Below are positions 3 to 26,698 of a stretch of DNA of 32,997 bases, in pieces. The translations under genes were made by a program, and so were the position numbers. Under the pieces are notes generated by a model. That model was not told the origin of the DNA. It saw only the letters and a program-made list of their open reading frames with translations, and ran no database searches. This DNA comes from a virus, in IMG/VR virus record IMGVR_UViG_3300047564_002077, positions 1 to 32,997 of that record. The stretch is one strand, 5' to 3'. Each line of letters begins with the position of its first letter. Within the stretch, counting starts at the first letter, position 1.

Positions 3-3000
3 TTCAATAAAATTAAATATCAGTTTACTCCAGGATTTGAAGAAGTAGAATTAAATTCTAAAATTAATCCTCAAAATTTCATTTCAAAAGCAAAATCATT
101 TTATCAGAGCAAAGGAACAGACGAAGCATTCAAAATTTTATTTAAAGTACTTTATGATCAAGATGTAAAGATTATAAAACCAAGAGAATTTTGCTTTACT
201 CCTTCTGATGATAAGTGGGTAGTAACAGAAACTTTTGTGTGTGATTTAATATCTGGAGATCCATTAAAAATAAAAGGTCAGACATTATATCAAGATAGTG
301 ATCCATATAATTCAAATGTTCTGGAAGCTACTGGATCAATCTATGAGGTAGAGTCATTTAAATTAGATAACAAGGTATTATATAAAATAAAAATATTTGC
401 TGGATATTCTAATAATATAAGTCCTAAAGGATCTATTACTGGTGTTTTTGTATCTACACCAAAAACATATGTAGTAGAGAATGTAGATGTTGAATCTAAT
501 ATCATATTTGCAGATTCAACTGTAGGATTTCCTCAGAGTGGAATATTAAATATTAATGGAGAAGAATATACATATTCAGATAAAACTAATAATCAATTTA
601 TAGGAGTAAGTGGAATAACTTCTACCACTGTTATTGGAAGGAAAACTGAAATCTATGGATCTAATTTTGTATATTCGTATGAAGATGGGGATATATCAGC
701 ACAAGTTAGATTAAAAGTAAACAATGTTCTATCTGGAATAAAATCATCAGAAACTCTTTATGCTCTGGATAATGATCCTATTAGAATTGAAAATGTAGGA
801 AGTACAGTAGATACCATCTTTACCAAATCTTTATACTACAACCATCCATTAACAATTCCAGCTGGAATTGCTACAACACAAATAACTGACACTGTAAGAA
901 CTTATTTTAAAGAAGGATTTTCTGTTGTAAATGGATTAGCGTTATCAAAATATAATCATAATTTAAAATTAGGCGACACAGTAAATCTTTTTGTAAAGTC
1001 TACTGAAGGATACGAGTTAATATCATCAGGACTTTCAGTAAATACTAATCTTTCTAAAGAATTTAGTGTTCAACAAATATCAAATCCTAATGTTTTAGGG
1101 AAAAAGGTTTTATTTAGAAGAAATTTAAAGAAAACAAAAGCAGCACCATTTACCAAACTTTATGACAACATTCAAAATAAATTTACTTCCAACATTCAAG
1201 ATTGTTATGTAGATGATAATTACTATTATGTAACATCTAATGGACTTCCTGATTATGAAGTAAATCCATATATTAGAGAGTTTTCTTTTACAGTTAATGT
1301 ATCTACATTAGTAGGTGCACACAATTTTTATGATGGAGAAGCAGTAAAAGTAGTTTCATATACAACATCTACCAATTACGATAATAAAGTTGGAATTGAC
1401 ACTGGGGTAACTTATTATGTTACTAGATTAAGCCCAAATACTTTAGGATTAACTGAGAATAGAGATAATGTTGGAAAAACCTCTATAAATTTCTTTGAGT
1501 ATGATAATGAAGGCAATTTATCTGGAACTATAAATGAAATAGTTCTTATAAGTTCTCCTTTGTATGGAAATAATTTTACATCTTCTAAGTTATTTAAAAA
1601 AATACCAAAAAATTTAGAATTTTCCAAAACTAAAGTTGAAACTGCTGCTGGTCCAATTGGAATTTTTGTTAATGGAGTAGAGATTCAAAACTATAAATCA
1701 TATGATAAAATTTATTATGGTCAAATTGAAACTGTAGATGTTTTAAATGGGGGAACTAATTATAGCTTAATTAATCCCCCATCCTTTCAAATTTTTAATG
1801 ATACTGAAAAAGACCAGACTACTTTTTTAATTCCTCAAATGAAAGGGGTTTTAAAAGATTTAGTAGTAGTAAATCCTGGATATGATTATGAAGATATTCC
1901 AGTAGTTACTATAACTGGTGGTAACAATGATGAATTATCTGCTCAAGTCAAAATGAAGAGCATAGATAAACTGATTCAATTTAATGCAACCACTAGAGAC
2001 ACTGTAGTAAATACTGTAAATAATGAACTAAGGTTTGGAAAAAACCATGGATTCATAACTGGGGAACCTATTGTATATGAAACTTTTAATACTATCCCAA
2101 TAGGAATTGGGTCAGTAGTTTCTGATGGAACTCTATTGAACAACTCAGTTTATTATGCTGTAAATATTGGAGCAGGTACTTCACTTAAACTAGCATTAAA
2201 CCAAGAAGATGCTATTGCAGAAAGAAATTTAATTAATATAAGAACTACTGGTGGTGGTATTCAAAGATTTAAATCTTTGAATAAAATTCAAGTAATTGAT
2301 AAGGTAAATGTTTTAGGTCAAAATATTAATTTTGAATATAAAAAATTATCTTTTGGACCAGAAGATATCAATGTATATGATAATATTTTCACTTGCATAG
2401 ATCATCAATTCAATACCAGAGATAAAGTAGTAATTACAGCAGAAGGAACTTATTTAAGTGGAGCAACACCAAATCAGATTTATTATGTTTTAAAATTAGA
2501 TAACGACAGATTCCAACTAACTACTGATCCAGAAGGGAAAAATATATTAAACATTATTAGTACAGATTTTGCTACAACTTATTTTGTACAATATCCTCCA
2601 ATTACTGCAAATGTTTTTGGAAAAATTAAAAAAACTGCATCTGCAGTAATTGGATATGGTGCTACAATTATCCCTGTAGTTGAAGGGTCTGTTACTTCTG
2701 TTAGAGTTCAAAGAGGTCTTGCTAAACCTGCTAAACAACTCTTAGGGTCCAGTAATATAATAAACTATCACAAGCGTCCTACTGTTACTGTTTTAGAAGG
2801 AAAAGATGCATCTTTTGCTGCAATAATAGAGGATGGAAAAATTATTGATGTTATAGTCAAGAATGCTGGAGAAAACTATTTTAATAATTTTGAACTTAAA
2901 GTTTTTGGAAATGGATATGGTGCAGTACTTCAACCAGTAATAAGTAATGGTGAGATCTACAATACACAAGTAAGTTATGGACAAATTATAGATGTTATCA

Positions 3001-6000
3001 TAGCAAATCCTGGAGTTGGATATGCAACTACAAATACAACCATTCAAGTAGTTCCTAAAGGAGAAAATTTAAAGGTATCAGCTAATTTAACTTCTTGGAC
3101 AATAAATGAAGCTATTAAATTAGGAATTTCAAATTTAAACAATGGAACTATTTTTGGAAAAAAATATTCTTTATTTGGAAATATTTTTGGAACTTTCTTT
3201 TTGGATCAAAATCTTAGATCATCTTTCAATATTCCAAATACTCCAGTAAGGCACTCTCCAATAGTTGGATGGTCTTATGATGGATGTCCAATTTATGGTC
3301 CATATGCATTCGCCAATACAGATGGAACTGGTGATGTAATTAGAATGAAAAGTGGATATTCTAGATCAAAAATTAGTCCTCCAGCGAATTTAGATTGTAT
3401 TGAAGACTATATTTTCACAAATTCAGGAACATTAGATAGAAACAATGGAAGATTTTGCATTACTCCAGAATATCCAGATGGAATATATGCCTATTTTTGC
3501 ACTTTAGATGATAATAATGTTCCTGCATTCCCATATATCATTGGAAATAATTATGAATACACTCCACAACAAGAAAATTTTGATTTAAAATTTAATCAAA
3601 ATTTAGATTTCAATAAATTAAATATTGTAAAATATACTAAACCATACAGAATAGAAGATAAGGATAATTATTATGAGTATTTTAAATTTGAATCTAATTC
3701 TCTAGGAAGTGATGCAATAATTACATCATCATCATCTGGAAAAGTAGATTCTATAGAGATCATTGATTCTGGTCTTAATTATGAGATTGGAGATAAAATA
3801 TTATTTGATATTGACAATCTTGGTGGGGTGGGTGCTTATGGAGAAGTTGTAGAAGTTGAGGGTGTAGGCATAACTACCATACAATATTCTACAAATACTT
3901 TTTCAGATGTTAAGTTATTAAGTATAAACACTGGTATCTTAGGAATAACTACAATACCTCACAATTTTGCAGATCAAAGTTTTATCACAATTACAGGAAT
4001 TTCAACAACAGATTATTCTCAAATTGAGGGTACTAGAAAAATTAGAATTAATGTAGAATATCCAATTACTTCTATTGCAAGCACACTTCCAAGTTCAACT
4101 ACTACAGGAATTATTACTGGAATAACAGTTAAAGAACCTTTGTTTTCATATAATATAGATGATCAATTTAAAATTCAAAATGAAACTTTTAAGGTAATAG
4201 GTTTAGATTTTACCAATAATTTATTGAATGTTTTAAGAGAGACATCATCACCAGGGTATGGAATTGGAGCAACTGTTTTACCTTTACAGAATAGATTCAC
4301 ATTTGAATATAAAGGACTAGACAAACCATTAACTCAATTAGATGAGGCATATTATTTCAATCCAGTTCAGTCAGTATCTATTGGATTAGGAACTTCAGTA
4401 GGATTTGGAAATACTTTAGCAATATACCCATTAGGTGCAGGAACATCTATAACAAAATACGTTCAATATGGAGGACTATATTTACCAAATAATAAATTTA
4501 AGACTGGAGATAGAGTGGTATATGAGTCAAACGCATCAAGTATAGTAACTAATTTAGGAAATCTTGAATCTATTCCAAATCTTTTTGTAGTTAAATTATC
4601 TTCAGATGTAGTTGGATTGGTCAATGAAAAAAATAAAATTAATGACTCAGCATCTATACTACAGTATACATCAGTTGGGACTGGAGTACTGCACAAGTTA
4701 ACTACAGTAAGAAATGTCATTACTTGTACAACCATTCAAAATAATGTAAAAGTATCTACCGCAGAAACACATGGTCTATCACCTAATGATAATATAAAAC
4801 TTAGTGTTATTTCTGGAATAGTTACTAACTATACAGTAGGATATTCAACTATAACCAAAAGGGTATTAATTAATTCTCAAGGAAGTGCTCCAATTAATGT
4901 ATATGCTAATGATACTGTGGTTTTTGACGTCTCATCACTAGATTTAAGTGGAAAAGAATTTGGAATTTACACAAATGATTCATTTAATAATGAATATTTT
5001 GGAAATGAAGAAAATGGGTTGGAAGTTATTAAAACTGATTCTCAACTTAGATTAAACATTAGTGAATTTACTCCAAGGACTCTTTATTATAATTTAAAAA
5101 ATATTACATCTGATGATGAGATTTATCCAGACATATCTTTAAAGGATTATAATAAAATAATAGTAAATAATAGCATATACAATACAGATTCTCTCATAAG
5201 CACTACTACTGATTATACATTTGAATTTGATGTTGCAATTCTTCCAGAAAGACAAAAATATACAAATCTATTGTCATCATTAAAGTATAATGTAAAATCT
5301 CCAAATATAAAAGGTCCAATAGCAAAAACAAAAGTCTTATTTAATGGATCTAATTATAAAAAACTTCCATTAATTAAAGAAATAATAACAAAGAGTGGAT
5401 CTGGAGCTAATTTATTCGCACTTAGCAATACTATTGGAAAGCTTAAAAACGCTAAAATTACAAATACACAATCTATTTTCCCAACAGATACTACATTAAG
5501 ACCAGTTTCTAATGTATTTTCTACAATAAAATTAACTAACAATTATGAAGTTGTTAGGTGTGTAGTAAACTCTCCTGGTTCAAAATATTTAACTTCTCCA
5601 ACTTTAAAATTATACAATAGAACAGAAGATTTGATTAAAGAAGAATTTTCTGCAATTCCTATATTAAAAAATACTTCAATAAATGAAATTAAAATATTAA
5701 ATTCAGGATCAAATTTAAAATCTACAGATGATGAAATTTTAGTGTTGGATAATAGTAATGGCATTAGAGTATTATCAGCTTCTGTTGCTGGAGTGGACCC
5801 ATATCAAGTAACATTAACATTAGAAACTCCTTTAGTTGGTTTTACAACTGAATCTCCATTGCCAATACAAGTTGGAGATGAAATATTAGTTGAAAATATA
5901 GTAAGTACTTCTGGTGTAGGATTTAATAGCAAAGATTTTAAATATGTTCCATTTAAAGTCACATTTGTAGATCAGGCATTTAATTCCCAAGATGCTGCTT

Positions 6001-7862
6001 TAGTTAGATACGAAGTAAATGAATTTCCTGGAATCTTTAGTGAAGATCTTACATTTAATGCATCAGTCATAAAATATTCAGATGTCCCTAGAATTACTCC
6101 TGTTTTGGGAGAAAGTCAATTTTATAATTCAGAATTTTTGACAGATGAAGTTGAAATTATTGACAATCCAAATAATGACAAAATTACCAGAATACTCAAA
6201 CTCCATAAGTCTACTGGATTATCAATTGGGGATTCTGTTTCTGGATTATCATCAAAATCAAAAGGAACTATATCAGATATAAGTGATTTTCCAGCATTGT
6301 TTACAATAGATTCTAGTGTTCCAGAAACAATTGGATGGAAAGATTTTAGAGGAAATTTATCAAGCATTCTTCAAAAGTTGCCAGATAATGATTATTATCA
6401 AAAGTTTTCATATTCACTTAAGAGTAAAATTCCATATACTGATTGGAATTCTATAGTTTCAGATATATCTCATGTTACTGGATACAAAAAATTTGCAGAT
6501 TTTAATATTGAATCAAATCAAATAGTAGGAATTGGAAGCACTAATAATGATTTAAAAGTTAAATCAGACTCTACATCATCAATTAATGTTGTATTAACAT
6601 CATATTCTCAGGTAAATACTATTTCAAACTTTGATTTAGTTATTGAAGAAGATATTGATGAAAGTGAAGGAGCATATTCTGAATTTATTAAATTTAGAAC
6701 TAGAAAATTATCAGATTTTATTCTATCTACTCAAAATAGAGTTCTTTCTATTGATGATATTTCTACTTTATTTGATACTGATAATGCTCCATTTGTTGAA
6801 GTTCCCGTTGATGAAATTGATACTACTGAAAATATTGTACTGAAGTATTTCTTCTTTGTTGGAACTACTGCTTCATTCTTTGGAGAATTTGTAAAACCTC
6901 AAATATTAGATTTATTTGTAACTAGAAATAATTCTACTATAAATCTATCATCTTATGCATACTACTATGATTTCTTTACATCAAGTGGTTCAGCTGCTCT
7001 TCCTTTAGGAGATATTCAGGGGCAACTTAGTCCTACCAATGGAGATGAGATAATTATTAATTTTATCCCAAGAAATATATTTAATAGTTATGCTATCAGG
7101 GCAGTTAAAGAATTTGCTAATGTTGCTGTTGGTGTTGCCACAACTTCTTTTGGGTATATTAGAAATGTAGAGTCTACTGGAATTTATACATCTACTCCAT
7201 CTCCATCTACTAGTGTATTTTATAGTATTCCTCTATCAGATTGTGTTGCTGGGTCTGTATTTTTAGGCATATCTTCAGCTCCTAAGAGGGTTGAAAATGC
7301 ATTTGAAATAAGTTTTGTCAAAAATCAAAACAATATTATAGATTACAATATTTTTGCAGAACAAAAATATAAAGAACTTGGAGTATTTGGTATAACCACT
7401 AGTGCAGGGAATATAGACTTTACATTTACCCCACAAACTGGAATTGGAGTAACTTTATTTACTAATTTTAACTTTATAACTAATACTTATGATGTTCCAA
7501 ATGAAGTAATTAAGGAATTGAGTAGAGTTAGAAGTAATCAAGTAATATACACTGGATCAAGTGCTGTATCCATCTCCACAGTGAGTTCTGCATATGCTGC
7601 AACAAAATACATAATTGAAGCTACTAAGACTGTAGGATTAAGCACTCAGAAGTCTCTAATTCAAATAAACTCACTTCACTTCCAATCATATATCAATAAT
7701 ACAGTCTATGGAATAATTGGAGATTTCCCACAAGATGAGTTAGATTTTGAAACAATATTAAATCCTTCAACTAGTGAATATGTCCTAACATTTAATCCTA
7801 CTGTTTCTGCTACTTACAGATTTAGATATCTTGAAAAGAGTGTTCTAAATCCAAATACTTAA
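3..7862 (+). CDS. Giant virion structural protein with YHYH-like domain (5'-partial), baseplate region
   Basis: The frame is open from the left edge. The GTG at 237 is internal, because codons upstream (nt 3-236) read without a stop and encode a typical segment (FYQSKGTDEAFKILF, then KPREFCFTPSDDKWV). At least 2619 residues are present and the true start is outside the window. Numbering from the codon at 237, residues ~1005-1105 resemble the YHYH domain (HSPIVGWSYDGCPIYGPY, later YPDGIYAYF and FPYIIG), but the naming YHYH motif is degenerate (YAYF). At least seven copies of a short beta motif of the type I-x-V-x-N-x-G-x-x-Y occur (near nt 1725, 1855, 2840, 2985, 3745, 5545 and 5675). The GIGTT/GIST-rich composition is typical of marine T4-like baseplate proteins. 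By position (two genes before gp8) it sits near T4 gp7, but I see no clear sequence link to gp7. Role inferred: baseplate or tail-tip component. Confidence 0.82.
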   Translation, partial: FNKIKYQFTPGFEEVELNSKINPQNFISKAKSFYQSKGTDEAFKILFKVLYDQDVKIIKPREFCFTPSDDKWVVTETFVCDLISGDPLKIKGQTLYQDSDPYNSNVLEATGSIYEVESFKLDNKVLYKIKIFAGYSNNISPKGSITGVFVSTPKTYVVENVDVESNIIFADSTVGFPQSGILNINGEEYTYSDKTNNQFIGVSGITSTTVIGRKTEIYGSNFVYSYEDGDISAQVRLKVNNVLSGIKSSETLYALDNDPIRIENVGSTVDTIFTKSLYYNHPLTIPAGIATTQITDTVRTYFKEGFSVVNGLALSKYNHNLKLGDTVNLFVKSTEGYELISSGLSVNTNLSKEFSVQQISNPNVLGKKVLFRRNLKKTKAAPFTKLYDNIQNKFTSNIQDCYVDDNYYYVTSNGLPDYEVNPYIREFSFTVNVSTLVGAHNFYDGEAVKVVSYTTSTNYDNKVGIDTGVTYYVTRLSPNTLGLTENRDNVGKTSINFFEYDNEGNLSGTINEIVLISSPLYGNNFTSSKLFKKIPKNLEFSKTKVETAAGPIGIFVNGVEIQNYKSYDKIYYGQIETVDVLNGGTNYSLINPPSFQIFNDTEKDQTTFLIPQMKGVLKDLVVVNPGYDYEDIPVVTITGGNNDELSAQVKMKSIDKLIQFNATTRDTVVNTVNNELRFGKNHGFITGEPIVYETFNTIPIGIGSVVSDGTLLNNSVYYAVNIGAGTSLKLALNQEDAIAERNLINIRTTGGGIQRFKSLNKIQVIDKVNVLGQNINFEYKKLSFGPEDINVYDNIFTCIDHQFNTRDKVVITAEGTYLSGATPNQIYYVLKLDNDRFQLTTDPEGKNILNIISTDFATTYFVQYPPITANVFGKIKKTASAVIGYGATIIPVVEGSVTSVRVQRGLAKPAKQLLGSSNIINYHKRPTVTVLEGKDASFAAIIEDGKIIDVIVKNAGENYFNNFELKVFGNGYGAVLQPVISNGEIYNTQVSYGQIIDVIIANPGVGYATTNTTIQVVPKGENLKVSANLTSWTINEAIKLGISNLNNGTIFGKKYSLFGNIFGTFFLDQNLRSSFNIPNTPVRHSPIVGWSYDGCPIYGPYAFANTDGTGDVIRMKSGYSRSKISPPANLDCIEDYIFTNSGTLDRNNGRFCITPEYPDGIYAYFCTLDDNNVPAFPYIIGNNYEYTPQQENFDLKFNQNLDFNKLNIVKYTKPYRIEDKDNYYEYFKFESNSLGSDAIITSSSSGKVDSIEIIDSGLNYEIGDKILFDIDNLGGVGAYGEVVEVEGVGITTIQYSTNTFSDVKLLSINTGILGITTIPHNFADQSFITITGISTTDYSQIEGTRKIRINVEYPITSIASTLPSSTTTGIITGITVKEPLFSYNIDDQFKIQNETFKVIGLDFTNNLLNVLRETSSPGYGIGATVLPLQNRFTFEYKGLDKPLTQLDEAYYFNPVQSVSIGLGTSVGFGNTLAIYPLGAGTSITKYVQYGGLYLPNNKFKTGDRVVYESNASSIVTNLGNLESIPNLFVVKLSSDVVGLVNEKNKINDSASILQYTSVGTGVLHKLTTVRNVITCTTIQNNVKVSTAETHGLSPNDNIKLSVISGIVTNYTVGYSTITKRVLINSQGSAPINVYANDTVVFDVSSLDLSGKEFGIYTNDSFNNEYFGNEENGLEVIKTDSQLRLNISEFTPRTLYYNLKNITSDDEIYPDISLKDYNKIIVNNSIYNTDSLISTTTDYTFEFDVAILPERQKYTNLLSSLKYNVKSPNIKGPIAKTKVLFNGSNYKKLPLIKEIITKSGSGANLFALSNTIGKLKNAKITNTQSIFPTDTTLRPVSNVFSTIKLTNNYEVVRCVVNSPGSKYLTSPTLKLYNRTEDLIKEEFSAIPILKNTSINEIKILNSGSNLKSTDDEILVLDNSNGIRVLSASVAGVDPYQVTLTLETPLVGFTTESPLPIQVGDEILVENIVSTSGVGFNSKDFKYVPFKVTFVDQAFNSQDAALVRYEVNEFPGIFSEDLTFNASVIKYSDVPRITPVLGESQFYNSEFLTDEVEIIDNPNNDKITRILKLHKSTGLSIGDSVSGLSSKSKGTISDISDFPALFTIDSSVPETIGWKDFRGNLSSILQKLPDNDYYQKFSYSLKSKIPYTDWNSIVSDISHVTGYKKFADFNIESNQIVGIGSTNNDLKVKSDSTSSINVVLTSYSQVNTISNFDLVIEEDIDESEGAYSEFIKFRTRKLSDFILSTQNRVLSIDDISTLFDTDNAPFVEVPVDEIDTTENIVLKYFFFVGTTASFFGEFVKPQILDLFVTRNNSTINLSSYAYYYDFFTSSGSAALPLGDIQGQLSPTNGDEIIINFIPRNIFNSYAIRAVKEFANVAVGVATTSFGYIRNVESTGIYTSTPSPSTSVFYSIPLSDCVAGSVFLGISSAPKRVENAFEISFVKNQNNIIDYNIFAEQKYKELGVFGITTSAGNIDFTFTPQTGIGVTLFTNFNFITNTYDVPNEVIKELSRVRSNQVIYTGSSAVSISTVSSAYAATKYIIEATKTVGLSTQKSLIQINSLHFQSYINNTVYGIIGDFPQDELDFETILNPSTSEYVLTFNPTVSATYRFRYLEKSVLNPNT
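3250..3550 (+). other. YHYH-like domain inside the giant structural protein
   Basis: The translated segment has RHSPIVGWSYDGCPIYGPY, then a Gly-rich loop, CITPEYPDG, and ends with FPYIIG. This order matches the YHYH domain (an H-S-P-I-x-G-x-x-x-D-G-x-P-I-Y-G-P block followed by Y-P-D-G-x-Y-H-Y-H). Here the eponymous YHYH reads YAYF, so both histidines are lost, while the first block is well kept. The domain's function is not established; it is found in secreted bacterial proteins and in marine phage structural proteins. Confidence 0.7.
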
Positions 7863-21622: not shown

Positions 21623-22321
21623 ATGTCTAGGCAAACAATATCTACTGGGTTTACACCTAATGATGGAACTGGAGACAGTTTACTGCAAGGTGCAACCAAA
21701 ATTAATAGCAACTTTAGTGAGATCTATACAACATTTGGAGATGGGACTACTTTAAATGCTTCTGCAGGAGCACAAGGTCCTCAAGGTTCTGTTGGAGCAA
21801 GAGGACCTCAGGGATCTTCTGGAGCAATAGGTCCACAAGGTGTTCAGGGATCTAGTATTGTTGGACCACAAGGTTCACAAGGAACTTCTGGTGCAATAGG
21901 TCCACAAGGACCTTCTGGAGGTGGAGGGGGTGGAAGTAGTTTGCAATCTAGGACTACTGTTTCAAGTACTACTCCATTATTAAACGCAAATTCTTCTTCA
22001 AGTGTAGTAATATCTGGATTTAAATCATATTTGTTATTAAAAATTGAAACATCTGCTGCTGCATGGGTTACAATTTATACTGATTCAACATCAAGAGATC
22101 TTGATTCTGCTAGAACTGAAGGAACAGATCCATTACCAGGATCTGGTGTTGTTGCTGAAGTAATAACTACAGGAGCATCCACTCAGTTAATAAGTCCAGG
22201 AGCTTTAGGATTTAATAATGATGTTTCTGTATCTGGAAACATTTATGCAAAAATTTATAACAAGAGTGGTTCTCAACAAGCAATAACAGTTACTTTAACT
22301 CTACTTCAATTAGAGAACTAA
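21623..22321 (+). CDS. Collagen-like structural protein (232 aa)
   Basis: Three regions are visible. Residues 1-45 form a short N-terminal domain (TGFTPNDGTGDSLLQGATKI, then NSNFSEIY) seen at the start of many marine phage fibre-like proteins. Residues ~49-105 are G-x-x triplets (GPQG repeated with GSS, GTSGAIG and a final poly-Gly run), which predict a collagen-like triple helix. Residues ~106-232 are beta-rich and probably form a globular tip or trimer domain. It lies between gp14 and gp15 and is followed one base later by the protease gene. The inferred role is a fibre or decoration at the neck or tail, possibly comparable in position to T4 fibritin (wac, next to gene 13), although the sequence is not fibritin. 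No signal peptide is visible. Confidence 0.8.
   Translation: MSRQTISTGFTPNDGTGDSLLQGATKINSNFSEIYTTFGDGTTLNASAGAQGPQGSVGARGPQGSSGAIGPQGVQGSSIVGPQGSQGTSGAIGPQGPSGGGGGGSSLQSRTTVSSTTPLLNANSSSSVVISGFKSYLLLKIETSAAAWVTIYTDSTSRDLDSARTEGTDPLPGSGVVAEVITTGASTQLISPGALGFNNDVSVSGNIYAKIYNKSGSQQAITVTLTLLQLEN
21767..21930 (+). repeat. Tandem G-x-x (collagen-like) coding repeat
   Basis: The DNA is a run of imperfect 9- and 18-base units built on GGNCCNCAAGGN. For example, the block GCAATAGGTCCACAAGG occurs twice, near 21825 and 21893. It encodes about 18 G-x-x triplets and ends in a GGA/GGT/GGG run (GGGGGG in protein). Such repeats tend to change length by slippage. Confidence 0.8.
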
Positions 22322-22322
22322 A

Positions 22323-24284
22323 ATGAAAGAATACATTGTATCTCTAGCATCTCATGAAGAGTTGGAGCAATTTTATGATGATATGGAAACTCCAGGAGGA
22401 ACAGAATTTGTTCCAGAAAGAGAAGTTGAGTGTTCATTAAGAAGACCAATTAGTAGAAATACTCATTATAACCTCACAGATAAAGAAGTAAGAAAATTAA
22501 AAGAAGACGATAGAGTTCTTGATATATGCCCAGCATCTGCATTGACAGATATTGTTAGAAAACCTTTATACACACAAACATCAACTGAATGGAATAAAAG
22601 TTCTACTTCAAGCACTAATCAAAAAAATTGGTCTCTTTTAAGATGTGTAGAGGGGGATCAAAGAAGTAATTGGGGAAGTAATGGAACTGCCCAAGTATCA
22701 GGAACAATTAATTTAACTAGCTCTGGAAAAAATGTAGATTTTATTTTAGTTGATGGACACATAAATCCAAATCATCCAGAGTTTGCCAAAAATTCAGATG
22801 GAACTGGTGGAACTAGAGTTAATCAGTTTAATTGGTATTCATTAACTTCTTTAGTTACTGGAGGTGCAAATGGATCGTATGTATATACTCCATACACTGA
22901 TGTTGGGGATGAGGCATTAACTGCTGACAATAATCATGGAATGCATGTTGGAGGATCTGCATGTGGCAATACTCAAGGGTGGGCAAGAGATGTAAATATC
23001 TACAATATAAACCCATATTCTTCAAGTTTAAATACTTTAGCTTCAACTTATATCTTTGATTATATTAGAGCCTTTCATAACACTAAACCAATAAATTCAG
23101 CATTAGGGATAAAGAATCCAACAATTTGCAATAATAGTTGGGGAGCATTTTATCAAATCACTAGATCAACTATAACAAATATTAACTGGAGGGGGACTAG
23201 TTATAATTCATCATTTACAGATGGGTTATTTAATTCAGTTGGACTTAGAAGTTATGATGCAACTTATTTGTATATTCCAGCTTGGACAACTGCTTTAACT
23301 GTAGATATAGAAGATGCTATAGCAGATGGAGTTTTATTTGTAGGAGCTTCTGGAAATGAGTCAACAAAAATAGATGTTCCTGGTGGAGCTGACTATAATA
23401 ATACTATAACTTGGTCTGGAGTTACTAGAAATTATAGCAGAGGAGATTATGTATCATCTTCAGGAAATGCTATATGTGTTGGAGCAGTAAGTGCATTAGT
23501 TAATGAATCAAAAGCAACATTTAGTAATTGTGGTCCAAGAGTTAATGTATATTCTCCAGGAGACAATATTATTTCTTGTCTTCATAATGGAGTAGTTTCT
23601 GGTGGATCTATTACTGTAGTAAATGACCCTAGAGATTCTGCATATAAATTAGGAAAATATGATGGAACTAGTATGGCATCACCACAAGTATGTGGAGTGC
23701 TTGCATCTGTACTAGAGCAATATCCAAGAATGAAGCAATCTGATGCAGTTGAGTATATAGAATACTATGCAAAATCAAATCAAATTACTGAGACTGGAAG
23801 AAGTACATTTACTTGGGACGTAACCAATAGTGGGTCTAGTGACTATGTATTTTCTGGATATAGTTCTGGAAATGATATTTCTATAACTGCTCAAGAAGGA
23901 TCAATCCTTGTATTTAATGTAAATGCTCCAGGTCATCCTTTTTGGATTAAAACAGAACAAGTTACTGGAACTTCAAGTGCAGTTACCACTGGAACAATAA
24001 CTGGAAATGGTAGTGAGTCTGATACAGTAATATGGAATACATATGGAGTAAAACCAGGAACTTATTATTATATTTGCCAATTCCATTCTTCTATGTCTGG
24101 AACTATTACTATTACTGCAGCATACACTGATGACACTTCACTTCAAGGATCTGATAATAAATTTTTGTTTTTCCAAAAAGATAGAAAAGATTCTGGAGTT
24201 CTTCAACCAAGAATAACTTTTAAAAGTAGAAGTACTTCTGGGCAGGTTTGGCCAAGACAGCAAACTTTATATTATAAAAAATAA
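22323..24284 (+). CDS. Subtilisin-family (S8) serine protease with C-terminal cupredoxin-like domain
   Basis: 653 residues. Residues 1-80 look like a protease propeptide (MKEYIVSLASHEELEQFYDD, later YNLTDKEVRKLKEDDRVLDI). The S8 catalytic set is complete: Asp144 (ILVDGHI), His205 (NNHGMHVGG), oxyanion Asn345 (GASGNES) and Ser450 (DGTSMASPQV). Residues ~500-600 form a beta domain with cupredoxin-type ligands: His538 (APGHPFW), Cys585, His588 and Met591 (YYYICQFHSSMSGT). The spacing C-x2-H-x2-M is that of amicyanin-like blue-copper sites. The tail (~601-653) is unassigned. No signal peptide is visible, so the protein is probably packaged in or on the virion. It follows the collagen-like gene by one base and precedes gp15. 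Substrate unknown: self-processing, virion maturation or attack on host surface protein are all possible. Confidence 0.9.
   Translation: MKEYIVSLASHEELEQFYDDMETPGGTEFVPEREVECSLRRPISRNTHYNLTDKEVRKLKEDDRVLDICPASALTDIVRKPLYTQTSTEWNKSSTSSTNQKNWSLLRCVEGDQRSNWGSNGTAQVSGTINLTSSGKNVDFILVDGHINPNHPEFAKNSDGTGGTRVNQFNWYSLTSLVTGGANGSYVYTPYTDVGDEALTADNNHGMHVGGSACGNTQGWARDVNIYNINPYSSSLNTLASTYIFDYIRAFHNTKPINSALGIKNPTICNNSWGAFYQITRSTITNINWRGTSYNSSFTDGLFNSVGLRSYDATYLYIPAWTTALTVDIEDAIADGVLFVGASGNESTKIDVPGGADYNNTITWSGVTRNYSRGDYVSSSGNAICVGAVSALVNESKATFSNCGPRVNVYSPGDNIISCLHNGVVSGGSITVVNDPRDSAYKLGKYDGTSMASPQVCGVLASVLEQYPRMKQSDAVEYIEYYAKSNQITETGRSTFTWDVTNSGSSDYVFSGYSSGNDISITAQEGSILVFNVNAPGHPFWIKTEQVTGTSSAVTTGTITGNGSESDTVIWNTYGVKPGTYYYICQFHSSMSGTITITAAYTDDTSLQGSDNKFLFFQKDRKDSGVLQPRITFKSRSTSGQVWPRQQTLYYKK
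23820..24122 (+). other. Cupredoxin-like domain within the protease
   Basis: Residues ~500-600 are beta-rich (DISITAQEGSILVFNVNAPG, then HPFWIKT and KPGTYYYICQFHSSMSGTIT). The candidate copper ligands His538, Cys585, His588 and Met591 are all present in the canonical order. Related domains occur in other marine phage structural proteins. Whether the site binds copper is inferred, not shown. Confidence 0.72.
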
Positions 24285-25594: not shown

Positions 25595-26698
25595 ATGAAA
25601 GATCCAAAAGGTCCTACAAAACCATATAGATCTCCAGAGGAAATCTCTAAAAAACATAAAGTTCCTTTGGATAAAATTATTAAGCAAGTGCGCATAGGAA
25701 CTAAAATTGAAGGTGAGCATACCACTAGTAAGAGTGGGGCAAGAATAACAGCATTGCAACATGTAGATGAATTACCAGATTATTATACAAGACTTAAAAA
25801 AGTAGAAAAACAGAAACCCATGAAAGAAGAAACTACTTCAGAAGAGCAATACGAAAAGGACACAAAATATTGCCTTCTTTGCAGAAAAAATGAGAAGAGA
25901 GAAGAATGTTCATGGGGTCCTTCTATGTGGGACAAATATACTATTGCAAAAATTCATCCTACTAATGAATCAAAGATTCATGAGGATCATAAGGAAGTTG
26001 CTTCTGGAAAGAAGAAGGATGAAGAAGGATATATGGCAAGAGTTGAGTTTGATCAAATTGAAAGGGCAGTTGATATTTTAAGAAAACATATTAAAAAAGG
26101 AGATCAACAAATTCCTGCTTGGGTACAATCTAAGATTACTAGAGCAGCAGATTTTATTGATACTGCAGCAGAATATATGTCAAGTGATGAAGATATTTCA
26201 GAAGGAATGACTATGAATGATTTCTTGAATGCTCGTAAAAAACGTGAAAGAAGTGCTGCAAGAAAAGAACTTTCACCTACTCGCAGAGCAGGAATTCATA
26301 CACCAGAAAAGAAACCAGAGAGAGATGCTAGAAGAGATGCTGCTGGGGGAGAAACTGGGCACGGTGGTCCATTAAGACCTAAAAAAGTTCGTAAAGCAAA
26401 GGCACTTGGAGAACTTGGTGAAATGATTACCTTTGAAGAGTTTATGCTTGAGGTTGCTGCATGGCAAAGAAAAGAAGGTAAAAATAAAAAAGGAGGATTA
26501 AATGAGAGAGGAAGAAAATCCTATGAGAATGAAAATCCAGGATCAGATCTTAAGGCACCTTCAAAGAAAGTAGGAAATCCTCGTAGAGCATCATTCTGTG
26601 CAAGGATGAGTGGGATGAAAAAGAAGTTAACATCAAAGAAAACTGCTAACGATCCAAATTCAAGAATCAATAAATCACTTAGAGCTTGGAACTGCTGA
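25595..26698 (+). CDS. Multi-domain protein between terminase subunits (DUF5661-like and DUF6321-like)
   Basis: 367 residues. Residues ~1-75 (SPEEISKKHKVPLDKIIKQV, IEGEHTTSKSGARITALQHV, LPDYYTRLKKVEK) resemble DUF5661. Residues 93-105 hold a Cys patch (KYCLLCRKNEKREEC). Residues ~144-198 (EGYMARVEFDQIERAVDILR, then IPAWVQSKITRAADFIDTAA) match a helical module common in small marine phage proteins. Residues ~200-270 are a very basic, probably disordered linker. Residues ~280-367 (WQRKEGKNKKGGLNERGRKS, RRASFCARMSGMKKKLTSKK, SRINKSLRAWNC) resemble DUF6321. T4 has no gene here; gp16 and gp17 are adjacent. Strong positive charge and location suggest DNA contact or packaging support, but that is inference. 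GAGGAATA upstream may serve as the ribosome site. Confidence 0.85.
   Translation: MKDPKGPTKPYRSPEEISKKHKVPLDKIIKQVRIGTKIEGEHTTSKSGARITALQHVDELPDYYTRLKKVEKQKPMKEETTSEEQYEKDTKYCLLCRKNEKREECSWGPSMWDKYTIAKIHPTNESKIHEDHKEVASGKKKDEEGYMARVEFDQIERAVDILRKHIKKGDQQIPAWVQSKITRAADFIDTAAEYMSSDEDISEGMTMNDFLNARKKRERSAARKELSPTRRAGIHTPEKKPERDARRDAAGGETGHGGPLRPKKVRKAKALGELGEMITFEEFMLEVAAWQRKEGKNKKGGLNERGRKSYENENPGSDLKAPSKKVGNPRRASFCARMSGMKKKLTSKKTANDPNSRINKSLRAWNC

Follow-up and report, generated by a model that had tools for sequence, protein, structure and literature searches.

A predicted subtilase zymogen fused to a cupredoxin module with a conserved, predicted copper site in a proposed tail-gene pair of a probable T4-like cyanophage

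The virus record IMGVR_UViG_3300047564_002077 of IMG/VR contains a stretch of 32,997 nucleotides, here called the window, to which gene coordinates given without another record name refer. One of its genes encodes a protein of 653 amino acids that combines an I9-like pro-domain, a subtilase domain of family S8 and a C-terminal cupredoxin domain with a predicted copper site. The eight residues that an initial annotation of this DNA had named as catalytic residues or copper ligands were all found at their positions in the protein. The features of the gene are as follows.

22323..24284, + strand: gene of the I9-like/S8/cupredoxin protein, a single open frame with an ATG start, 653 amino acids
22323..22562, + strand: pro-domain, residues 1-80, I9-like beta-alpha-beta topology (AlphaFold2 elements; PF05922 in relatives)
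22569..23768, + strand: S8 subtilase domain, residues 83-482 (PF00082 and fold)
22752..22754, + strand: catalytic Asp144, in 46/46 aligned relatives
22935..22937, + strand: catalytic His205, in 46/46 aligned relatives
23355..23357, + strand: oxyanion Asn345, in 46/46 aligned relatives
23670..23672, + strand: catalytic Ser450, in 46/46 aligned relatives
23805..24116, + strand: cupredoxin domain, residues 495-598 (profile alignment, domain model and fold matches)
23934..23936, + strand: predicted copper ligand His538 (amicyanin alignment and conservation)
24075..24095, + strand: predicted copper loop C585-x2-H588-x2-M591 (amicyanin alignment and conservation)
24228..24257, + strand: C-terminal tail motif RSTSGQVWPR (RxTGxxFPR-like); such a motif is present in 42/70 protease open reading frames (ORFs) by a strict pattern that scores near misses, L011, L016 and L145 among them, as absent

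The AlphaFold2 model of the protein, made from an alignment of 46 sequences, has a mean predicted local distance difference test score (pLDDT) of 84.5 and places a small beta-alpha-beta pro-domain (about residues 1-75) before the subtilase, which is followed by a beta-sandwich at residues 495-598. The S8 domain is matched by Pfam PF00082 at residues 142-480 (E 3.7e-24), and the whole-protein model most resembles proteinase-K-like subtilases (Foldseek, 2b6n, E 1.8e-17). Superposition of this model on 8c4z with VIA gave a Z score of 35.4 and a root-mean-square deviation (rmsd) of 2.3 over 278 residues, as expected for the subtilisin fold. The complete S8 triad and oxyanion asparagine that had been proposed are borne out by the S8 order and motifs and by the invariance of D144, H205, N345 and S450 in an alignment (A1) of 46 sequences chosen by hand, the distinct protease ORFs totalling 66. 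By Pfam, the protein belongs to S8 and not to S77, the class of the T4 prohead protease gp21. By its residues and predicted fold, the protein is thus a complete S8 subtilase, for which catalysis is predicted.

The pro-domain (approximately residues 1-80) exhibits, in the AlphaFold2 model, strands at 2-8, 37-39, 46-51 and 65-70 and helices at 11-22 and 53-59, a topology that fits I9. PF05922 (I9) weakly matches 14 of 27 relatives at E<=1, with a best value of 0.0015, and leaves the window's own sequence unmatched, while a sequence search of the pro-domain against PDB returned zero matches. The earlier proposal of a propeptide-like N-terminus is supported. An I9 pro-domain is frequent in S8 subtilases, though not required. 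The proposed lack of a signal peptide also stands, since none is visible: the first 40 residues hold no hydrophobic segment in a hydropathy scan, which is not a signal-peptide predictor, and their best 12-residue mean is 0.12.

The C-terminal domain had been suggested to be a cupredoxin, and both the profile comparison and the structure prediction point to this fold. Modelled alone, the domain reaches a pLDDT of 94.8. The best VIA row is Hyphomicrobium nitrite reductase 2dv6, residues 24-135 (Z 10.8, rmsd 2.4 over 95 residues), followed by rusticyanin 2cal (Z 10.0) and then by two-domain laccases. The best 50 Foldseek matches listed for the domain model are mostly copper proteins, the exceptions among them being the aspartic peptidase 3njm, EfeO 7wgu and a few others. 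PF00127, which stays below its cut-off for the window and does not suffice by itself, matches 39 of 63 cupredoxin copies at E<=0.1, and a family profile (A2) built from these 63 copies reaches plastocyanin 1bxu (E 5.2e-5) and amicyanin 2gb2 (E 1.5e-4). In the alignment of A2 with amicyanin, the first histidine and the C-x2-H-x2-M loop are in register with the amicyanin His and Cys-His-Met, which we take to be its copper ligands. Because of the fold match and the profile alignment, the four predicted ligand side chains probably converge. We therefore infer from sequence and model that this domain is a cupredoxin with a predicted type-1 copper site formed by H538, C585, H588 and M591.

In the first IMG/VR set, all four ligands are present in 79/90 aligned sequences, and 5 of the 11 exceptions are gaps at ligand columns arising from truncated copies. 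A non-redundant set was obtained by reducing 324 copies to 305 full ones, 171 distinct ones and finally 119 after 80% identity; it comprises 111 copies with His, Cys, His and Met (HCHM), one with HCHQ and 7 others. Without the free plastocyanin-like frame of phage P-SSM2 (L170), HCHM is found in 110/118. Loss of the site is concerted, 6 of the 7 remaining copies being altered at no fewer than two ligand positions, and the ligand columns, 95-96% conserved, are among the most conserved of the domain in the 119-copy set. Codon changes in the cupredoxin between the window and its near relatives L005 and L006 amount to 23 synonymous versus 7 and 6 non-synonymous.

As the seed peptides hold the ligand letters, and one of them also the catalytic His, the counts from IMG/VR and from bacteria are tilted towards intact sites. 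The cultured and seed-free sets are less biased, yet were found by a profile that includes the ligand columns. Copies holding no seed peptide, which share 20-45% identity with the window's domain, exhibit HCHM in 26/32 cases (25/31 without the P-SSM2 frame). In cultured-phage records searched by tblastn, all four ligands are kept in 17/17 full copies at 31-58% identity to the window's domain; one 30-residue partial match was dropped from the 18 found, and the 17 distinct records were picked by hand from match lists of 44 and 94 records. They include the gp9-type connectors of S-SSM5, P-RSM4, S-CAM8, S-P4, S-B64, S-MS29 and ACG-2014a, as well as copies from P-SCSP2 (a Prochlorococcus Autographiviridae phage), the actinobacterial phage DSL-LC01 and P-SSM2 fibre proteins. 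Within the 119-copy set, the P-SSM2 frame L170 sits in the cultured group of 15 and among its 12 seed-free members; with this frame excluded, 14/14 cultured copies and 11/11 seed-free ones are intact. All four ligands also persist in three distant copies from large phage proteins of other kinds (L164, L165 and L168; L165 and L168 resemble each other).

The initial annotation had left room for a relic, and had held that homologues routinely losing ligands would speak against a copper site. According to this explanation, the domain would be a metal-free beta-sandwich reused as an Ig-like adhesion or spacer module, its ligands being kept by chance or for packing. The shuffling of the domain among fibre and baseplate proteins, as with other beta modules, and the loss of ligands in 7/119 copies are consistent with this. 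The conservation of the ligand columns, the concerted nature of the losses and the seed-free copies argue against it, as do the bacterial relatives, 23/24 of which keep the same ligand set (found with seeds that carried the ligand letters), the remaining one having Gln for Met. We consider a relic unlikely because the ligands are kept in 111/119 non-redundant copies, and we rejected it as the leading explanation since they are also conserved in sets not picked by motif. The single bacterial substitution, in L185 (3842-4321), replaces the axial Met by Gln (HCHQ); a Gln axial ligand is known from stellacyanin-type cupredoxins.

The cupredoxin is a mobile module of cyanophage proteins that is far more widespread than the protease fusion. 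When 20 records were searched whole, 19 gave a cupredoxin match at E<=0.01, those of Sf-FR1 and S-RSM4 being only weak and partial. P-SSM2 contains five matches, one of them in a frame of 131 amino acids, presumably its free plastocyanin. In a separate search of three more phages, S-SM1 and Syn9 carry a copy in frames of 409 and 406 amino acids, which is gp9-type length, plus a weak match in a frame of 116 amino acids, and S-PM2 had zero copies at E<=0.01. The module forms the C-terminus of cyanophage gp9-type baseplate connectors, and among the BFVD matches of its model that have names are S8 proteins, tail fibres and baseplate connectors of cyanophages, as well as beta-sandwich proteins of giant viruses and a blue copper protein of Fadolivirus, many rows being nameless. 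Two of the BFVD matches are YHYH-named phage proteins, and the first frame of the window (3-7859, baseplate wedge-like, phrog_2885) contains a YHYH domain (PF14240, E 2.6e-21), so YHYH and cupredoxin domains may travel together.

The single copy in S-SZBM1 lies inside SSZBM1_206 (146110-147606), which by eye begins with a gp9/10-type region and ends in a cupredoxin that has all four ligands. Table 1 of PMC9146016 reports 9 peptides of S-SZBM1_206 (24.9% coverage) from purified virions, peptide positions not being given there. SSZBM1_206 is the sole virion evidence here for the cupredoxin module. The packaging of the enzyme suggested by the initial annotation is thus supported only indirectly, by the pairing of the protease gene with a fibre-like gene (60/65, see below) and by this virion protein that shares the domain.

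Bacterial relatives of the domain come from 25 loci, drawn from Bacteroidota, Pseudomonadota, Myxococcota, Bdellovibrionota, Acidobacteriota and one archaeal metagenome-assembled genome, and include short proteins. A simple pattern identified a lipoprotein-like N-terminus in 8/26 of the bacterial ORFs, which are thus likely cell-envelope proteins, the envelope being a usual place for cupredoxins. Together with the full type-1 ligand set, this would suit a working redox centre that transfers electrons or takes copper through redox cycles on the host surface, or acts as a redox trigger of attachment or protease activation. No redox partner was recognised among the window genes, however, and fusion to different phage proteins better suits a structural or binding role; as the module has been joined to tail proteins of several kinds, we give a structural or adhesive metal more weight, and a redox centre seems to us an outside chance.

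The protease and the cupredoxin occur in at least three arrangements, judged relative to the RxTGxxFPR-like tail motif. The cupredoxin precedes the motif in the window, its relatives and L018, follows it in L028, S-H9-1 and ACG-2014h among others, and lies inside the S8 region in L072, while in L013 the upstream partner, and not the protease, carries it. For the window's cupredoxin, the nearest copies are those of large proteins other than proteases (67% identity to L060). Approximately unbiased (AU) tests reject a tree in which the protease-linked copies form one clade, with p 0.004 (35 rows) and 0.024 (31 rows) and, in a repeat of 36 rows with L072 in the protease group, 0.0005; the groups were set after the tree had been seen, the roughly 106 columns give weak resolution, the tests kept tandem internal copies of proteases among the others, and the 36-row test omitted six rows, most of them long branches and one of them the plastocyanin-like frame of P-SSM2. 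The varied arrangements and these rejections, at such resolution, disfavour a single ancestral fusion, and the protease appears to have been joined more than once to the same cupredoxin module. L049 (863-3937) encodes one protease with five tandem cupredoxin-like stretches, some partial. In the L007 contig (4992-6964), a change of frame, either real or a sequencing error, interrupts the cupredoxin.

That frameshifted relative is all we found in favour of an assembly artefact or chance fusion of two genes, which is already contradicted, the full fusion being present in relatives on separate contigs (L002, L003, L005 and L006) and in cultured phages such as S-H9-1 (L128) and ACG-2014h (L142). 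We give it almost no credence.

Directly upstream of the protease gene lies a second gene, whose product is probably its partner.

21623..22321, + strand: upstream partner gene, 232 amino acids, with a gp9/10-type N-terminus, collagen repeats and a conserved C-terminal domain
21941..22318, + strand: conserved C-terminal domain of the partner (phrog_9627/phrog_15343, no assigned function), in 60/65 upstream partners

The N-terminus is of the T4 gp9/10 type (PF07880, E 7.2e-9), and the collagen-like repeats match PF01391 at E 1.3e-4, below its cut-off. The C-terminal domain gave no sequence match in PDB at E<=1 and an unconvincing Pfam search. This domain ends 60 of the 65 ORFs found directly upstream of S8 genes, a count that contains near-copies (62 distinct ORFs) and excludes five protease ORFs without an upstream ORF, whereas a gp9/10-type N-terminus was detected by phmmer in only 16/65: the anchors vary and the terminal domain stays. 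In the window and in four cultured phages, the two genes are one base apart or overlap.

The initial annotation had placed the fusion next to gp14/gp15 and suggested looking for the same arrangement in marine phage genomes. This position is not conserved and was rejected as a rule, the same gene pair occurring in other neighbourhoods in S-H9-1, Sf-FR1, S-CREM1 and S-RSM4; since the neighbourhoods differ, the pair can be regarded as a movable unit. A second kind of pair was also observed, in which the same partner C-terminal domain precedes a protein of 770-802 amino acids (L128 1415-5204; L062, L069 and L038 near their starts); the S-H9-1 (L128) protein of 770 amino acids has its own intact cupredoxin site, and by eye the region is degenerate in L062, L069 and L038. 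Elsewhere in the window, 25595-26698 encodes a protein of 367 amino acids with DUF5661 and DUF6321 between gp16 and gp17.

A close relative, L005, whose protease is 90% identical, lies on a contig of 142.8 kb that carries a photosystem reaction-centre gene of the psbA/psbD family (PF00124, E 5.9e-91), a family present in 3/11 records searched. It is therefore very probable that the phage of the window is a cyanophage. The window protein matches 44 phage records, two of them in the cupredoxin only, and a gp8-type wedge is found in 471, of which 457 are named Synechococcus, Prochlorococcus or cyanophage, both counts including duplicate GenBank/RefSeq records. The S8 protease gene is therefore accessory. 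The prohead protease gp21 is present separately in 9/9 genomes searched, eight of which bear the S8 gene, so the idea that the S8 protease replaces gp21 was rejected.

These distributions bear on whether the enzyme could serve in assembly or maturation, cutting the phage's own fibre or baseplate proteins (its upstream partner, perhaps) within the cell, and not be directed at the host. A cytoplasmic zymogen without a visible signal peptide that follows one kind of upstream gene (60/65) would fit this. The separate gp21 does not, nor does the lack of an S8 match in most T4-like cyanophage records, which indicates that no general assembly step needs such a protease; we regard this role as rather improbable. 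An intracellular effector that attacks host proteins during infection and is not packaged seems more improbable still: the pair adjoins host-derived or accessory genes in Sf-FR1 and S-RSM4, but the window's partner has a baseplate-type anchor and one carrier of the cupredoxin module has been detected in virions. An accessory protease with a fibre-like partner suggests host contact rather than a core assembly step.

We propose that the two genes form a tail cassette of a T4-like cyanophage comprising a subtilase zymogen that is carried on the tail and bears a surface module stabilised by metal, with packaging, catalysis and copper all predicted; we hold the chances of this being right or wrong to be about equal. 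The upstream gene would provide a fibre-like protein that combines a baseplate anchor of the gp9/10 type with the conserved terminal domain, and the downstream gene a subtilase zymogen most likely seated on that fibre. The I9-like pro-domain would chaperone and block the enzyme during assembly in the host cytoplasm and then be removed by cleavage. Packaged at the baseplate or fibre tip, the protease could clip host-surface proteins at adsorption. The cupredoxin would be a module shuffled among virion proteins, with copper or another metal in its stead bound via H538, C585, H588 and M591, the bound metal locking the beta-sandwich and/or providing a metal-dependent contact surface. The packaging of the protease, its proteolysis and target, the occupancy by copper and a structural or adhesive rather than redox use of the metal are what we infer for this cassette.

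Several points weigh against this proposal. With PF00127, the window's protein scores 15.3 bits as a whole and its C-terminal domain 19.2 bits by itself, both below the cut-off of 21.2 bits. Ligands are lost in copies that nevertheless persist (7/119; the L026 and L073 genes), so the fold can serve without metal, and several proteases, such as L011, L016 and L020, lack a cupredoxin, so the enzyme does not need one. The partner domain is absent from 5/65 upstream ORFs and also ends genes that are followed by non-protease genes, and therefore is not a dock for the protease only. Free copper is scarce in the cytoplasm, where phage proteins are made, which makes copper loading a problem; our guess is that loading takes place after release or at the envelope. 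No virion proteome of an S8-bearing phage was found in the literature searched. The limits of the AU tests given above count on the same side.

Each part of the proposed cassette has known counterparts. PHROG 9158, which has no assigned function, covers the same pro-domain and S8 region (E 3.8e-131, residues 2-489), and the fusion lies within this family, as its last ~110 positions match the cupredoxin copies of other proteins; it differs in being unlabelled as a protease or copper protein. PHROG 677, the cyanophage gp9-type baseplate wedge tail fiber connector, exhibits the same cupredoxin in its C-terminal ~110 residues, with all four ligands in seven gp9-type proteins aligned, and an N-terminus resembling the window's upstream gene (E 3.7e-17). 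It contains no protease, however, and combines anchor and cupredoxin on one polypeptide. As PHROG 9158 is labelled as of unknown function and PHROG 677 as a plain baseplate connector, genomes carry the cupredoxin unannotated.

The subtilase is like proteinase K and aqualysin-type S8 enzymes in its catalytic residues, fold and I9-like pro-domain, and unlike them in being phage-encoded, fused to a cupredoxin and without a visible signal peptide. Amicyanin, plastocyanin, rusticyanin and the first domain of Hyphomicrobium nitrite reductase share the fold and ligand set of the cupredoxin, C-x2-H-x2-M being the amicyanin spacing. These proteins are free or enzyme-bound electron carriers. In contrast, the window's domain is part of a virus fusion protein, and its first ligand is embedded in HPF. 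With regard to metals in phage tails, PMC11705849 describes HxH iron sites in the tail fibres of T4 (gp37) and Alteromonas phage R22Y. These are likewise conserved metal-ligand residues in tail proteins of marine phages, but they are histidine-only iron sites, whereas the window's is a copper-type His/Cys/His/Met site within a single domain. Among the open-access matches listed, covered by their titles and the starts of their abstracts, a cupredoxin, type-1 copper, copper-binding or plastocyanin-like domain in phage tails is undescribed. While the S8 and cupredoxin families are known, the same matches describe neither the fusion nor the cassette nor the spread of the ligand-complete cupredoxin.

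A wider hypothesis, which we put forward tentatively and consider possible but on balance doubtful, is that the tails of T4-like cyanophages are copper-bearing. Connectors, fibres and the subtilase would then have functional type-1 sites shared with bacterial envelope cupredoxins, and the virion would load copper on release or at the host envelope, tuning fibre stability, host contact or enzyme activation. Whether copper alters stability or adsorption is a question that the cyanophage sites make testable. If true, intact type-1 copper sites would extend the metals of phage tails beyond iron, infection would hinge on the supply of copper, and surface waters would contain a copper ligand so far overlooked, the phage particles. 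Copper is both toxic and scarce for marine picocyanobacteria, and through a copper-using virion infection would therefore be tied to the chemistry of trace metals. The protease cassette, in which an accessory zymogen goes with one kind of fibre-like gene, is in turn a candidate host-range enzyme.

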